From: Lentisphaerota bacterium
Lineage (GTDB): Bacteria; Verrucomicrobiota; Lentisphaeria; Victivallales; Victivallaceae
Length of the DNA stretch: 36,788 nucleotides
Reading direction: 5' to 3'
Assembly (NCBI GenBank): GCA_015061775.1
Contig: SUVY01000023.1
Span: 1-36,788 of the forward strand
The translations under genes and the position numbers were made by a program. Of the stretch, positions 1-5,470 are shown in pieces. A model generated the notes under the pieces. That model did not search any database. It was not told where the DNA came from and saw nothing but the letters and a program-made list of their open reading frames with translations. Each line of letters opens with the position of its first letter. The stretch's first letter is position 1.

Positions 1-127
1 AGATGCTGCTAATCCTCAGAGGTATGGTTATCGCCGATAAAGAATTTGATAAAAATTACAAAAATATTTCAAAATCGGCTTGACTTTAAGCAAACCATCT
101 GACAAAGGTAGGTAAAAGTAAATAAAA

Positions 128-340
128 GTTAATGTCTCAAATGTTGTGAGACAATCTGAACGGCGGCGCCCCGCGGTCAATCTCGCGCCTTGCATCTGCG
201 CCGCGGCGGTCGTGTACAGAAGTACACTCCCTTGCTGTGCTCAATGCAAAACGCGACCTTGCCTCACGGATGCATCCACCGATGCTGACAAGCGTTTTGC
301 GTATGTTGACAAAACATATCTTATGTGTTATATTTAAGCG
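128..340 (+). repeat. 213-bp GC-rich dispersed repeat, copy 1
   Basis: It is nearly identical to the reverse complement of 5021-5236, with a few substitutions and a 3-nt indel. It contains a stem TGTCTCA/TGAGACA (133-139/147-153), a GTGTAC/GTACAC hairpin around 210-225, a long-range stem GCAAAACGC/GCGTTTTGC (246-254/292-300) and a sigma70 promoter at its right end. A 63-codon frame (146-337) stays open in both copies because the indel is 3 nt, but its composition is that of structured non-coding DNA. The copy interrupts the left arm of the inverted repeat at 101-456, so it most likely arrived later as a unit. Confidence 0.85.
306..334 (+). promoter_or_regulatory. Sigma70-like promoter carried by repeat copy 1, facing chrA
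   Basis: TTGACA (306-311), a 17-nt spacer and TATATT (329-334): consensus -35 and near-consensus -10. The expected start is near 341, just outside the repeat, giving a leader of about 140 nt to the chrA start at 482. Confidence 0.7.
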
Positions 341-385
341 AGTACCCCGCTTTTCTTGAAAGGGAGAGAGGGGCGCGGGGAGAGA

Positions 386-421
386 GGGAAAACTTCTTTT
401 CTCGTGAAAAGAAGTTTTCCC
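386..421. other. Perfect 16-bp hairpin in the chrA leader
   Basis: GGGAAAACTTCTTTTC (386-401), loop TCGT, and the exact complement (406-421). It has no following T-tract on either strand, so it is not a standard intrinsic terminator. Its right half runs into the 42-nt inverted-repeat block that recurs at 1659-1700. A related stem with the same GGGGAAAACTT core lies at 5412-5451. Confidence 0.8.
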
Positions 422-481
422 GCTTTCCCCGCATCATCTCCCCATATCGGGAACAATAATTATTGAAATCGACAGGACAAA

Positions 482-1063
482 ATGAAAATCGACAGGGAAT
501 ATTTCAGTCGTCTGTGGCTGCTGTTCTGGACCTTTGCCAAGATCGCCGCTCTGGTGGTCGGCGGAGGTCTTGCCATGCTTCCGGTGATCGAGGAGACATT
601 CGTCAACCGCAAAAAGATCTTGACCTCCGAGGAGCTGCTTGATATGATCGCCATAACCCAGACCATTCCGGGAATCATCGCCGTGAACTCCGCCGTCTAT
701 GTCGGCTGGAAAGTTGCCGGTCTGCTCGGAGCGGTTTGCGCCACGGTCGGAGTCATCCTGCCCTCATTTACAGTCATCGTTATAATTGCGATGTTTTTTC
801 CGTCACTCTCTCCTGATAACATATACATCAAAGGAGCCTTTTCCGGAGTCCGCGCCGCCATTACCGGCATGATCGCCGTGACCGCATACAACACGCTCCG
901 CAAAGGGGTGAAAAAGCGCATAGACGCCGTCATCGTTGCGGCAGGTTTCATCACCTGCGCCATATTCAAAGTCAACCCCGCGTACGTGATCTGCGCCGCC
1001 ATGCCCGCCGGATTGGTGTTGCTGTACTGGGAGGAACGCAAAGCTGGGAGGACTGAAAAATGA
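482..1063 (+). CDS. chrA: Chromate transporter, ChrA family, first half-protein
   Basis: 193 residues, the length of one ChrA domain, so this is half of a short-chain two-gene ChrA system. It is hydrophobic with several membrane spans. Signature motifs are visible: FxxFAKIA at the start, GGGLAMLP at about residues 28-35, ITQTIPG at about 59-65, and AVYVGWKVAGLLGA. The family is proposed to export chromate through the inner membrane, probably as a heterodimer of the two halves; the substrate is inferred from the family only. The start ATG follows AGGACAAA. The stop overlaps the next start by 4 nt (ATGA), showing translational coupling. Expression probably comes from the promoter in repeat copy 1. 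There is no chrB-like regulator nearby. Confidence 0.9.
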   Translation: MKIDREYFSRLWLLFWTFAKIAALVVGGGLAMLPVIEETFVNRKKILTSEELLDMIAITQTIPGIIAVNSAVYVGWKVAGLLGAVCATVGVILPSFTVIVIIAMFFPSLSPDNIYIKGAFSGVRAAITGMIAVTAYNTLRKGVKKRIDAVIVAAGFITCAIFKVNPAYVICAAMPAGLVLLYWEERKAGRTEK

Positions 1064-1647
1064 TTGGTGCAGCTGTTATCTTCCTGCTTTTCTGCAAATT
1101 TTCCCTGCTCTGTTTCGGCGGCGGATATATGCTTATTCCGCTCATCATATCCGACTGCGTGGAAAAACATGGTTTTCTCTCCCTTGAGGTGTTCGGAAAT
1201 CTTTTATCCATCAGCCAGCTCACTCCGGGACCCGTCGGAATAAATACCGCGACCTACGTCGGCTATATCCAGGGAGGCTTTCTCTCGAGCCTTGCCGCAA
1301 CGCTTGGTCTGATATTTCCGACCATGATCCTGTCGAGCCTCGCCATCCTCGGCATACGCAAGTGGAAAGATACTTTCATCGTGCGCGGCATCATGCGCGG
1401 AACCAGATTGTCAAGTGTCTCATTGATAATCTATGCAGTAACGATATTCCTCGGACTCTCGGTGTTCACCTCTCCGATACCGTGGGAAGTTCTCTTCGGC
1501 AAAGGTATTCCCGATAGTTTCGGAGTCTCTTATAAAGGATTGATAATTGCTGTCCTTGCCGCAACAGCAGTAGCCAAAAAATGGTGCTCAACCACCATAA
1601 TAATCCTCTGCGGAGCCGCCGCCGGAGCCATCCTCGCCCTGATTTGA
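1060..1647 (+). CDS. chrA: Chromate transporter, ChrA family, second half-protein
   Basis: 195 residues, the second ChrA domain, paralogous to its upstream neighbour. Motifs: FCKFSLLCFGGGYMLIP near residues 9-25, SQLTPGPVGINTATYVGY near 51-68, and a GLIFPT segment. The PGP motif is typical of ChrA, and the first half has PGI there, so this half carries the more canonical site. It overlaps the upstream gene by 4 nt, and together they should form the antiparallel two-domain transporter. The right arm of the flanking inverted repeat begins 12 nt after its stop, so no further gene belongs to this cassette. Confidence 0.9.
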   Translation: MIGAAVIFLLFCKFSLLCFGGGYMLIPLIISDCVEKHGFLSLEVFGNLLSISQLTPGPVGINTATYVGYIQGGFLSSLAATLGLIFPTMILSSLAILGIRKWKDTFIVRGIMRGTRLSSVSLIIYAVTIFLGLSVFTSPIPWEVLFGKGIPDSFGVSYKGLIIAVLAATAVAKKWCSTTIIILCGAAAGAILALI

Positions 1648-1658
1648 TTTAGAAAGCT

Positions 1659-1807
1659 TTGTTCCCGATATGGGGAGATGATGCGGGGAAAGCGGGAAAA
1701 TTTTCGTTATTCTTTTCCCCCTGTCCCGCCATAGCCTTGGCGACGGCGGATCTCACCCTTTCAAGAAAAGCGAAAAACTTTTTTATTTACTTTTACCTAC
1801 CTTTGTC
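1659..1807 (-). repeat. Right arm of inverted repeat flanking chrA pair
   Basis: Reverse complement of the left-arm blocks: 1659-1700 (42 nt perfect), 1751-1772 (one mismatch) and 1781-1807 (27 nt perfect). The part between the first two blocks differs from the left arm. It ends 29 nt before the stop of the convergent minus-strand gene. This arm has no 213-bp insertion and therefore shows the likely ancestral state. Confidence 0.85.
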
Positions 1808-1836
1808 GGGAACAGAGCCATTTAGAAAAAGGAAGA

Positions 1837-4800
1837 TCAAAGTTCCAGGGGGAGGATTGTGGTGGTATCGAAGGCTGTTTCGCGGAGCTCTACGCTATCT
1901 TTGCGGTAGATTTTTATGGTGTGATTTCCTGAGCCGTGCAGTTTTACTGCTCCATCGGTTACTTCCACAAAAACATCCGTTGGAGCGTCTATTACCGCGT
2001 CTTTCAACACCGTCAGCAGTTTTGCTTCGCGCTCTTTTACTTCAGTATCAAAGACAAAGCCTGCCGCCTTTACCGTCACAGGTTTGATATTGGATTTTTC
2101 TGTCCAGTCGGTATTGAGCAGCATTATGCGTTTGACGTCTCTGCTCTCGTCCCACATATTCCAGAACACTTCGCGCGAAGCGTCTTCCACGCTGCACTCA
2201 GGAAGATTATCCTGCGCAAGCAGCGCGACCAGATTCGCCATTATCTGTCGTATATCCTCATGTCCGAAGTATGCGTATGCCGTCAGCAGATAGACCGTTC
2301 CTTTTCCGTATCTGTGCCGTACCACCAGCGCATGACGCTTGGCGGCATCCCAGATAAAGGGTTCAGCTCCGGCAAGTTCGATATCCGCCATGCAGCAGGA
2401 GCCATCCTCGGTGCGCGAACTGCTCGGTATTGCCGACAGATCAGGCTGCGGAAACTTTTCGCGGCAGACTGCATTCCATTGACCGCTGAAGAGTTCTCCC
2501 TTGCCTTTGACTTTTACTCCGCACAGTTCAGAAAGATCGCCGTCATTGTAGAGGTCAAGATCTTCCATATCTCTGAGGAAATCTCTCTTTACATGGCGCG
2601 AAAATTGAGTGAGACCTATAAGCAGCGTGCCACCGTTTCCGACAAACTCACGGAGTTTATCATAATCCTCATCGATCATGGTATTCCAGCCCATGTGGAG
2701 CAAAAGGGAGTACTGTTTGAGGTAATCTGCACTTGCTTCCGTCGGAACCTCATCGAAATCGCCGTAGGGAGTTCCAGAAAAAAAGAAGCGGCGTTTATTG
2801 AAATCCTGACGGAACGGCTGCGTTGAAGCTCCTGGCATCAACACATCGAGCACATGGCGGCATTTTTCGACCTGATTATGTCTCCATGTGGAGTCATTGT
2901 TTCCAAATTTTCCCCATACTGAATAATCAGGAGTCTGCTCCGCATCGCAGATAAATCCGTTGAAGGGAGCTGCGTATCTGCCCTCGACAAATGCTATTCT
3001 TCGATTGACTTTGCCTTTGCGCGGATGGGTCTTGGCGAACTTGAAAAACCATCTGGTCATATCGCGTTTACCCTTTGTGAGCGCATCATCCCACGCCTGA
3101 CGCTCCTCTTTGAAGAGATTGAATAAACAATCCTCCTCATAAATCATATTTGCCCCCATCATCCACGGCTGCATGATTGAAAGGTAGTACAAGCCAAGGT
3201 GATTTTCAAAATAGGGCTGGGTCGCGTGCTGGATTGCGATATGCACTCCCCACTCGCCGTTGCGGAATACCTCCGCCGCCGGACGCGCCTGACTGCACAA
3301 GTGCTGAGTATGGCTCACCATGGTTTCGGAGCGGATAAAATCGACTCCTGCCATGTAGCAGTAGCGGTGACCTCCTGACGCGTCTCCGAAAGCGGAACGC
3401 GGACACACCGCATGAGCTTTATCTATTTCGACTTTGAGGTGTTTCAAATACTGTTCGACCGCGGTTTTCATATCAGGAGACTCAAATCCCGGCTGCGGGT
3501 CCATTGCGTAAACTACTCCGGGCCACTCGTGGCGGCCTGAGCTGTGCATCATCTCTCCTGCTCCCTCGACCAGTTCTTTTGAGTTGATGACACTCTCGAC
3601 ATAGATTTTATGGTCGCAACAGAATTTTCCCCAGCGTCTCAACTCTTCGGGGTCGGCTTCATAGTCATTTTGGAACGCATTTTTGAACTCTCCTGAGTCG
3701 TGGGTCGAAGAGCACTCGCATTGTGCCGCCTGATATTTTCCGTTGAAGTGCGGACGGAACACCACGATATTGCTCAGCTTCGTGCGGTATGTGTAGTCGA
3801 GCAGCCAATCCATATAGCCATCCACATCATGCGGAACGGTAGTCATATCGTATCCGACCATGACCTCAGGAGTCTCATCAGCGACATCATAGACTTCGGG
3901 AACCACTCCCTCGCTGTTTCCGCAGGTGAACTTTATATTTTTTCCCGGCTCGCTGAGGTTAAATACAAATTCGTTCCATCCCTTTTGGAGTGTCATTTTG
4001 AGACTGTTTCCGGGATATTGGATAGTTACCTCTTCAGCGTCTTGGACCGAAAACACCTTTCCGATCTCCCTGCAGTTTGTCTGCGCCCATTGCGGAAGCG
4101 AAAACTCCAGGTGTGCGTAATTTGATGTCTGCAATATCATTCGGGTTATGAGGAAACATCCATCATCATTATTGGCGTTTTCAAGTTCAAAACTGTGTCT
4201 TCCCGGCTCCGCCTCAAAATTGAGCCACAGATCTTCAAGTATCTGCATAAACACATCGTGGCTCCGGTAAAATCTGCGGTTGCTCACCACAAGTTTGCCA
4301 TCGCAGTACAGATTTATGGTGATATAGTCCGAGTATTGCTGCTCCTTCTCAGGAGTATATCCCGGCGCAGCCATACAGACCACGTGCAGCAGCTGTTTGG
4401 AGTAATCTTTTTTCTTTTCCGGGATTACCGCCTCGAACTTCACCCTTTTTCCGGGTTCCAGCCACGCAGTTCTCATGCGCGCCCAGTTGCGGATTTCAAG
4501 TTTTCCGGCAAAGTCATCCACCTCAAAGACCTGCTGGCCATCCTTCGCTTCAGGAACGAACCAGTAGTATCCCGTTTTAGTCACAATCACATGGCAGCCG
4601 AGATATTTTGGTCCGACATTGAACACCAACCGTCCATTTTTCAGAATATCGTTTGCCGTAAAGTCAAAGTTTCCTGACGCGGTTTTAAGATGGAATACGC
4701 TGTTTTCATTGACTTCTGCTGTAAATCTTACTCCGGCAAGTCCGCGGCGTGTCGTACTTTTCCACTCCGCAGCTTCAAGTTTTGTCTCTTTTGCGCAATG

Positions 4801-4959
4801 TCCGGGACCGAACCAGATTACAGGATAGTCGAGCTGCCACGCTCCAGTCACCGTTCCGTTTTCGCACTCCAGTTTTCCGTCCCAGATATAAAACGGATGG
4901 TAATGACGCCGTGAGTAAAGGTATTGGTAACCCCAATCTATTCTGAAGTCTATTTTCAT
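1837..4959 (-). CDS. Large glycosidase-like protein of unrecognised family (1040 aa)
   Basis: I do not recognise a CAZy family. The first roughly 350 residues look like beta-sandwich or carbohydrate-binding modules: many aromatic residues, a WFGPGHCAKET segment near residue 50, and PGRHSFELENANND. A TIM-barrel-like centre follows (VGYDMTTVPHDVDGYMDWLL, then GDASGGHRYCYMAG). Around residues 745-800, LLLHMGWNTM...LREFVGNGGTLLIGL resembles the GATase-like trimerisation domain of GH42-type beta-galactosidases. A beta-sandwich tail closes the protein. No signal peptide is seen, so it is probably cytoplasmic. The open frame extends 55 codons upstream into the repeat; I chose the ATG at 4959 because the repeat-borne promoter starts transcription near 5020, and the protein begins sensibly there (MKIDFRIDWGYQY). 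The ribosome site is weak. Confidence 0.75.
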   Translation of the reverse strand: MKIDFRIDWGYQYLYSRRHYHPFYIWDGKLECENGTVTGAWQLDYPVIWFGPGHCAKETKLEAAEWKSTTRRGLAGVRFTAEVNENSVFHLKTASGNFDFTANDILKNGRLVFNVGPKYLGCHVIVTKTGYYWFVPEAKDGQQVFEVDDFAGKLEIRNWARMRTAWLEPGKRVKFEAVIPEKKKDYSKQLLHVVCMAAPGYTPEKEQQYSDYITINLYCDGKLVVSNRRFYRSHDVFMQILEDLWLNFEAEPGRHSFELENANNDDGCFLITRMILQTSNYAHLEFSLPQWAQTNCREIGKVFSVQDAEEVTIQYPGNSLKMTLQKGWNEFVFNLSEPGKNIKFTCGNSEGVVPEVYDVADETPEVMVGYDMTTVPHDVDGYMDWLLDYTYRTKLSNIVVFRPHFNGKYQAAQCECSSTHDSGEFKNAFQNDYEADPEELRRWGKFCCDHKIYVESVINSKELVEGAGEMMHSSGRHEWPGVVYAMDPQPGFESPDMKTAVEQYLKHLKVEIDKAHAVCPRSAFGDASGGHRYCYMAGVDFIRSETMVSHTQHLCSQARPAAEVFRNGEWGVHIAIQHATQPYFENHLGLYYLSIMQPWMMGANMIYEEDCLFNLFKEERQAWDDALTKGKRDMTRWFFKFAKTHPRKGKVNRRIAFVEGRYAAPFNGFICDAEQTPDYSVWGKFGNNDSTWRHNQVEKCRHVLDVLMPGASTQPFRQDFNKRRFFFSGTPYGDFDEVPTEASADYLKQYSLLLHMGWNTMIDEDYDKLREFVGNGGTLLIGLTQFSRHVKRDFLRDMEDLDLYNDGDLSELCGVKVKGKGELFSGQWNAVCREKFPQPDLSAIPSSSRTEDGSCCMADIELAGAEPFIWDAAKRHALVVRHRYGKGTVYLLTAYAYFGHEDIRQIMANLVALLAQDNLPECSVEDASREVFWNMWDESRDVKRIMLLNTDWTEKSNIKPVTVKAAGFVFDTEVKEREAKLLTVLKDAVIDAPTDVFVEVTDGAVKLHGSGNHTIKIYRKDSVELRETAFDTTTILPLEL

Positions 4960-5020
4960 GGTATTGTCCCAATTTTTGTGAAAGCTTTTCGAAACAGATG
5001 ATAAACAATATTTTGTTATA

Positions 5021-5236
5021 CGCTTAAATATAATACATAAGATATGTTTTGTCAACATACGCAAAACGCTTGTTTGCTTCGGCGGATGCATCCGCGAGGC
5101 AAGGTCGCGTTTTGCATTGAGCACAGCAAGGGAGTGTACTTCTGTACACGACCGCCGCGGCGCAGATGCAAGGCGCGAGATTGTCCGCGGGGCGCCGCCG
5201 CCGTTCAGATTGTCTCACAACATTTGAGACATTAAC
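5021..5236 (-). repeat. 213/216-bp GC-rich dispersed repeat, copy 2 (inverted)
   Basis: Reverse complement of copy 1 at 128-340, with the same hairpins and promoter and an extra GGC in the GC-rich part. The conserved block runs from GTTAATGTCTCAA to TATATTTAAGCG. Outside it the similarity to copy 1 stops on both sides, which defines the unit. It lies directly upstream of the minus-strand 1040-aa gene. Confidence 0.85.
5027..5055 (-). promoter_or_regulatory. Sigma70-like promoter carried by repeat copy 2
   Basis: On the minus strand: TTGACA (5055-5050), 17-nt spacer, TATATT (5032-5027). The expected start is near 5020, giving a 5' leader of about 60 nt to the ATG at 4959. Confidence 0.7.
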
Positions 5237-5470
5237 ATTTTCATAGCTGCGTATTCCTTTGTTTTGTGCCAAACTTGGCGGAGTTGAAGAGGAGGAGATT
5301 TTATTTTTTATGCTTGCGCTATCGCGCTCGCTTTTTTGAGCTGCCGCGCTTATTTTTTGCGCTATCGCGCTTGCTTTTTTTCAGCCTCGCTTTGCTGTGC
5401 AAAGCTCGGGATTGAGGGGAAAACTTTGTTGTAACAAAGTTTTTCCCTCAAACTCCCTTTTCAAAGAACT
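5237..5470. other. Gene-free spacer with GC-stem/T-tract units and a long hairpin
   Basis: There is no gene here. TTGCGCTATCGCGCT occurs twice (5314-5328 and 5357-5371), each followed at once by a short T-tract, with a degenerate third unit near 5340-5358. These look like tandem terminator-like stems on the plus strand, although no plus-strand gene precedes them. A stem CTTTGC/GCAAAG lies near 5390-5405. A 19-bp stem with one wobble pair (5412-5430/5433-5451) follows, which would form just after the stop of the minus-strand esterase gene but has no T-run behind it. Confidence 0.6.

Follow-up and report, generated by a model that had tools for sequence, protein, structure and literature searches.

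A dispersed 277-bp repeat with a putative outward promoter and a hairpin core in a Victivallaceae bacterium and its sister species

Among the closest described systems is MITEAba12 of Acinetobacter/Moraxellaceae, which bears outward sigma70-type promoters, with transcripts arising from one of them (PMC6382973). The Correia elements of Neisseria are cited in the same paper as MITEs bearing strong promoters (PMC6382973). Also, dispersed short repeats assumed to be promoters have been treated as mobile promoters (van Passel, Nijveen, Wahl and others, as cited in PMC8049555).

In this study, we analyzed a stretch of 36,788 nt (contig SUVY01000023.1, assembly GCA_015061775.1), in the following called the window, of a Lentisphaerota bacterium (Victivallaceae). 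The genome of the window, G000, comprises 2.70 Mb in 107 contigs. The original prediction for this DNA was a 213-bp repeat in two inverted copies which carries a promoter to its neighbors as a mobile switch. We consider it likely that the repeat is a non-autonomous MITE of the IS256/Mutator type which brings an outward promoter and supplies or replaces the promoters of many G000 genes.

The element in the window and in its genome

Self-comparison of the window gave inverted arms at 161-340/5021-5200 with 96% identity and at 124-168/5196-5240 with 98% identity, and thus the two near-identical inverted copies were recovered. The features of both copies and their surroundings are as follows:

120-127, plus strand: left target duplication of copy 1 (AAATAAAA), right partner lost; same target as at L006 and L010, inside a second repeat family
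128-340, plus strand: MITE copy 1, about 61 bp of the right end missing according to alignment with intact copies; same breakpoint as L002
134-152, plus strand: short hairpin in the left end (GTCTCAAATGTTGTGAGAC), folding on both strands
166-281, minus strand: long core hairpin of copy 1, minus-strand fold with z -5.2
207-231, minus strand: hairpin apex of copy 1, GGGAGTGTAC-N4-GTACACGACCG, a motif found across phyla
306-334, plus strand: putative promoter of copy 1, TTGACA-N17-TATATT, assigned by sequence and conserved in the family
482-1063, plus strand: chromate transporter gene downstream of copy 1 (PF02417, E 3.7e-47)
1060-1647, plus strand: second chromate transporter gene (PF02417, E 1.8e-31)
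1837-4959, minus strand: glycosidase-like gene of 1040 aa whose start abuts copy 2; weak PF08532 match, orthologues in sister genomes
4952-4959, minus strand: right target duplication of copy 2 (ATGAAAAT), containing the start codon in use
4960-5236, minus strand: MITE copy 2, intact, 277 bp, defined by its ends and target duplication
5027-5055, minus strand: putative promoter of copy 2, TTGACA-N17-TATATT, assigned by sequence and conserved in the family
5130-5154, plus strand: hairpin apex of copy 2, assigned by sequence; the same motif across phyla
5237-5244, minus strand: left target duplication of copy 2 (ATGAAAAT), holding the displaced native ATG

The part common to both window copies (213-216 bp) is shorter than the whole element, for which alignment of all G000 copies gave an intact length of 277 bp. 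Copy 2 runs another 61 bp past the shared part, its last bases being GGGACAATACC, and the ATG of the 1040-aa gene follows immediately. A common breakpoint, identical to the base, is found in copy 1 and in locus L002, and the second repeat family follows it. The right edge of the shared 213 bp is the point at which copy 1 is truncated and thus no end of the element, and the sharp 213-bp edges assumed before were wrong; the intact unit reaches 4960, beside the ATG at 4959. Each copy does contain the expected TTGACA-N17-TATATT reading out of the repeat, at 306-334 (plus) and 5055-5027 (minus). In copy 1 it faces the proposed chrA pair, i.e. the two PF02417 genes. In copy 2 it faces the 1040-aa gene as stated; the glycosidase identity of this protein comes down to a weak match to the beta-galactosidase trimerisation domain PF08532, below the cut-off.

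A search with the 214-bp query gave 43 matches in G000, where copies were located by sequence searches and in retrieved stretches, so that a restriction of the repeat to two copies, named beforehand as a refutation, did not apply. The number of promoter-bearing copies rose to 47 once short forms were included. Searches with the 22-base end sequences (up to 3 mismatches) gave 46 right and 45 left ends, and the reversed sequences used as controls gave 0 and 1, respectively. The short forms (~120-184 bp) are devoid of the hairpin core and are probably deletion derivatives, since their breakpoints differ. Further fragments of the element are also present, and several G000 contigs terminate within it, as expected for a repeat which breaks the assembly.

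The terminal inverted repeats are imperfect and comprise ~25 bp (GTTAATGTCTCAAATGTTGTGA versus GGTATTGTCCCAATTTTTGTGA, about 17/22), similar to those in sister species. Elements are flanked by 8-bp target duplications, such as ATGAAAAT at copy 2 and AATATCTC, TATTTTTG, AATTATTT, AAATAATA and others elsewhere. These duplications were seen in long, short and sister-species elements, with 8/8 identical positions at most short forms and at many elements overall; the targets are AT-rich. No gene lies inside the 277 bp, and together with the inverted ends and the target duplications this agrees with the small non-coding, non-autonomous repeat originally proposed. The inverted arrangement of the copies near each other in the window would also suit a local duplication. 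This origin was ruled out by copy number and distribution and has a negligible probability, given 43 dispersed matches, the presence of the family in sister genomes, and target duplications that are unlike one another from copy to copy.

For some copies, the insertion site is a single point of GTAAAAGTAAATAAAAAAGT within the second repeat family, and eight uninterrupted occurrences of this repeat were found in the stretches read; therefore, occupied and empty sites exist in the same genome. In the window, the second family covers 101-127 plus 341-456, and 1659-1818, with the inverted ends GGCTCTGTTCCCGA...TCGGGAACAAAGC. Its two inverted copies bracket the chromate transporter pair, the left one being interrupted by MITE copy 1. 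Relatives of it are nested in elements of the sister species G008 (L173, L178). A strong hairpin (GGGAAAACTTCTTTTC...GAAAAGAAGTTTTCCC) at 375-432 separates the promoter of copy 1 from the chromate transporter pair and could affect transcription into these genes.

The putative promoter and the neighboring genes

The motif TTGACA-N17-TATATT, which is predicted to be a complete sigma70-type promoter, is located 65-68 bp from the right end of the element (67 bp in the intact copy) and reads outwards. Nearly all elements of the genus keep this place and a spacer of 17 bases. For 13 representative elements of the genus, the pairwise identity per column was 97% for the -35 hexamer, 81% for the -10 hexamer, 66% for the spacer, and 40% for the 40-45 bp on either side; anchoring of the promoter windows on the best match somewhat favors the hexamers in these values. 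No comparable promoter site was found on the opposite strand of the G000 elements.

For the orientation of the 47 promoter-bearing G000 copies, gene starts were taken from our own codon-based gene calls trained on the window. At a distance of up to 150 bp, the promoter end had a gene start in 24 cases, compared with 2 for the other end (p 1e-5), and gaps between tandem genes contained 20 sense versus 4 antisense elements (p 0.0015). Genes facing the promoters include dnaE, fabF, eno, pyrE, pepT, and genes for thioredoxin and dTDP-glucose dehydratase. As a cause of this orientation, a strand bias of the target sites was rejected for G000: in tandem gaps of 21 background stretches, 51% of the target-like 8-mers were in sense direction, and because they are strand-neutral, target preference cannot account for the bias.

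Comparison with orthologous sites showed the element to be absent there. Copy 2 was inserted right into the start-codon region, so that the duplicated ATGAAAAT places one ATG on either side of the element and the 1040-aa gene now starts at the element's edge. All 12 copies of this gene read in relatives (L349 from an inexact start; L355 a distant copy) have no element upstream. The displaced native ATG beyond copy 2 opens a frame of nine codons which ends within the element (ATGAAAATGTTAATGTCTCAAATGTTGTGA, by eye). For pyrE, 13/13 orthologues read were without the element. A TATATT common to many relatives lies downstream of the element, between it and pyrE, and the native pyrE promoter is therefore probably intact. 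Together with the opposite orientation in a sister species (see below), this means that service to the next gene is not universal.

In the sister species G008, the bias is reversed (1:13, p 0.002; loci L167-L195), with 13 of 14 nearby gene starts at the end distal to the promoter, and in G012 and G017 an orientation bias is absent. With the opposite bias in G008, it is no general rule that the element serves the gene next to it. In G008, the -10 sites of the elements are for the most part weaker (TATGTT, TATTTT), and promoter-like sites, themselves weak, occur on the opposite strand; these features may bear on the reversal, although they are only suggestive. With regard to the original prediction, the mobile promoter repeat was corroborated by copies, ends, duplications, the conserved promoter and the G000 bias; its description as a switch found no support.

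Two other explanations of these data have to be weighed. The outward promoter might be a relic of the parent transposon, where it would read through the end junction of an excised circle into the transposase gene; any effect on neighbors would then be incidental and the bias otherwise caused. Outward and circle-junction promoters are known for several IS families, with IS256 among the junction-promoter families (PMC9330008), and the opposite bias in G008 fits as well. However, these MITEs have no transposase gene, yet their hexamers are conserved while the flanks diverge, and the G000 bias towards gene starts is strong, so that we regard a relic as possible but rather doubtful. Alternatively, the orientation could result from the mechanics of insertion relative to replication or transcription, and not from selection for the promoter. 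A single promoter function does not predict opposite biases in two sister genomes, which speaks for this idea; in G000, however, the target-like sites are strand-neutral, and the two window copies, 4.7 kb apart, point in opposite directions, each according to its own gene, an arrangement that speaks against replication direction as the sole cause. Insertion mechanics thus appear to be an unlikely cause.

In the preferred explanation, that of a promoter-bringing MITE, a transposase from elsewhere would move, or would have moved, the 277-bp element, whose insertion would duplicate 8 bp of an AT-rich target. The outward sigma70-type promoter, ~67 bp from the right end, would then read into the neighbors. 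As most surviving G000 copies face a nearby gene start, the element probably supplies or replaces the promoters of many such genes, and selection for this function may have caused the bias. Against it count the 1:13 bias in G008, the neutral G012 and G017, the likely native promoter at pyrE, and the negative search in G000 for transposases of three families (see below).

The core hairpin

Internal hairpins were found in both copies as predicted; compared with shuffled sequences, the core of copy 1 has a strong fold in minus-strand direction (z -5.2) and a weaker one in plus-strand direction (z -2.35). Its apex, GGGAGTGTAC-N4-GTACAYGACCG, occurs in both window copies (207-231, 5130-5154) and in the loci L231-L342. 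Among the matches listed in a scan of the whole collection, it was present in Lentisphaerae, Desulfovibrio, Thiotrichales, Xanthomonadales, Pseudomonas, Clostridia, Bacteroidales and Verrucomicrobiota, with 88 matches in one Desulfovibrio genome. One apex copy (L249:319-343) is located in a Bacillota contig, with the 23S rRNA gene on one side and the 5S rRNA gene on the other.

At 89 distinct sites, pairing of an arm with its own partner gave a mean of -40.7 kcal/mol, compared to -22.4 with the partner from another site. In Desulfovibrio, the 10-base lower arm varies between copies, and its partner matches at 9 or 10 positions in 19/26 cases; in a Bacteroidales genome, a double change from GTGTAC/GTACAT to GCGTAC/GTACGT was found. 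Rfam 15 gave no family at the gathering score, and at a relaxed score only sub-threshold matches, mostly to microRNA-precursor models; a literature search by the apex sequence gave only unrelated papers among the matches listed. The hairpin may be an RNA selected for its structure, or it may consist of palindromes kept perfect through template switching.

Since the apex is conserved and the arms change completely yet stay complementary, we tentatively put forward, at a rather low probability, that the element carries two modules: a promoter which rewires host genes, essential ones included, and a hairpin from an undescribed structured family of several phyla, which as a mobile or selected RNA or ssDNA structure would have colonized an IS256-type MITE. 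It could also be that the importance of the copies lies in the core, whose hairpin would act as a terminator, an RNA end or a DNA structure, the promoter being secondary. This would be in line with the strength of the hairpin, with its structure being conserved across phyla among the matches listed, and with the position of most long G000 copies after the stop codon of a co-directional gene. We judge it improbable, as short forms without the core have spread too, with intact promoter and target duplications.

Relatives, mobilization and comparison with known systems

Using a 274-bp query, this type of element was detected in 14/33 sister genomes, compared to 0/26 genomes outside the genus; the family reaches dozens of copies per genome across one genus of gut bacteria. 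Sister-species elements have the same design, 8-bp duplications and similar ends. A complete IS256-family element (PF00872), bounded by GATAACGTCCGAGAAATTGCGCAC and GGTAGTGTCCGAAGTTTTGCGCAC, was found in the sister species G016; its exact ends are less certain because no target duplication was visible. The right ends of the MITEs match the GGTAGTGTCCGAAGTTTTGCGCAC end at 15-19 of 25 positions, for which the chance at p 0.3 is about 2e-3 to 2e-5 or less. A target duplication of 8 bp fits the IS256 family. Based on these sequence features, the element is probably a MITE of the IS256/Mutator type.

No IS256 (PF00872), ISL3 or IS1595 transposase was found in the 107 contigs of G000. As mobilizers, IS1595 was rejected since it had no match in the genus, and ISL3 since it occurs in some relatives but has different ends. 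An autonomous copy was rejected as well: longer elements (492-1036 bp) with both ends and matching flanks have no transposase gene, and two of them hold other nested repeats. As no IS256-type transposase was found, the family in G000 may be stranded, or its helper transposase, if repeated, may be unassembled in the 107 contigs.

The family represents a clean natural case of one promoter being copied to dozens of genes via transposition. As sister species have no insertion at these genes and two related genomes show opposite orientation biases, it is directly testable whether copies are kept for their promoter or merely tolerated. In addition, the hairpin core may represent a structure common to several phyla that has not yet been described.

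Compared with the IS256 family, the end sequences of the MITE resemble those around the complete transposase of G016; the element differs by having no transposase gene, with none of this family found in G000. Correia elements have ends other than those of the present element. They also have TA or short target duplications (PMC9330008), in contrast to the 8 bp observed here. With the mobile promoters, as far as they are described where cited, the concept of dispersed short promoter repeats is shared, to which the present element adds a defined transposon structure, including its ends and target duplications. MITEAba12 is likewise a short non-coding MITE of many copies with target duplications, AT-rich targets and an outward sigma70-type promoter (PMC6382973). 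It comprises 111-114 bp and no orientation preference was reported for it (PMC6382973), whereas the present element has 277 bp, a long hairpin core, a strong orientation bias in two genomes, and a promoter predicted from sequence. Outward-promoter MITEs and the idea of mobile promoters are therefore already known. What sets this family apart is an orientation bias that is reversed in a sister species, together with the hairpin core.
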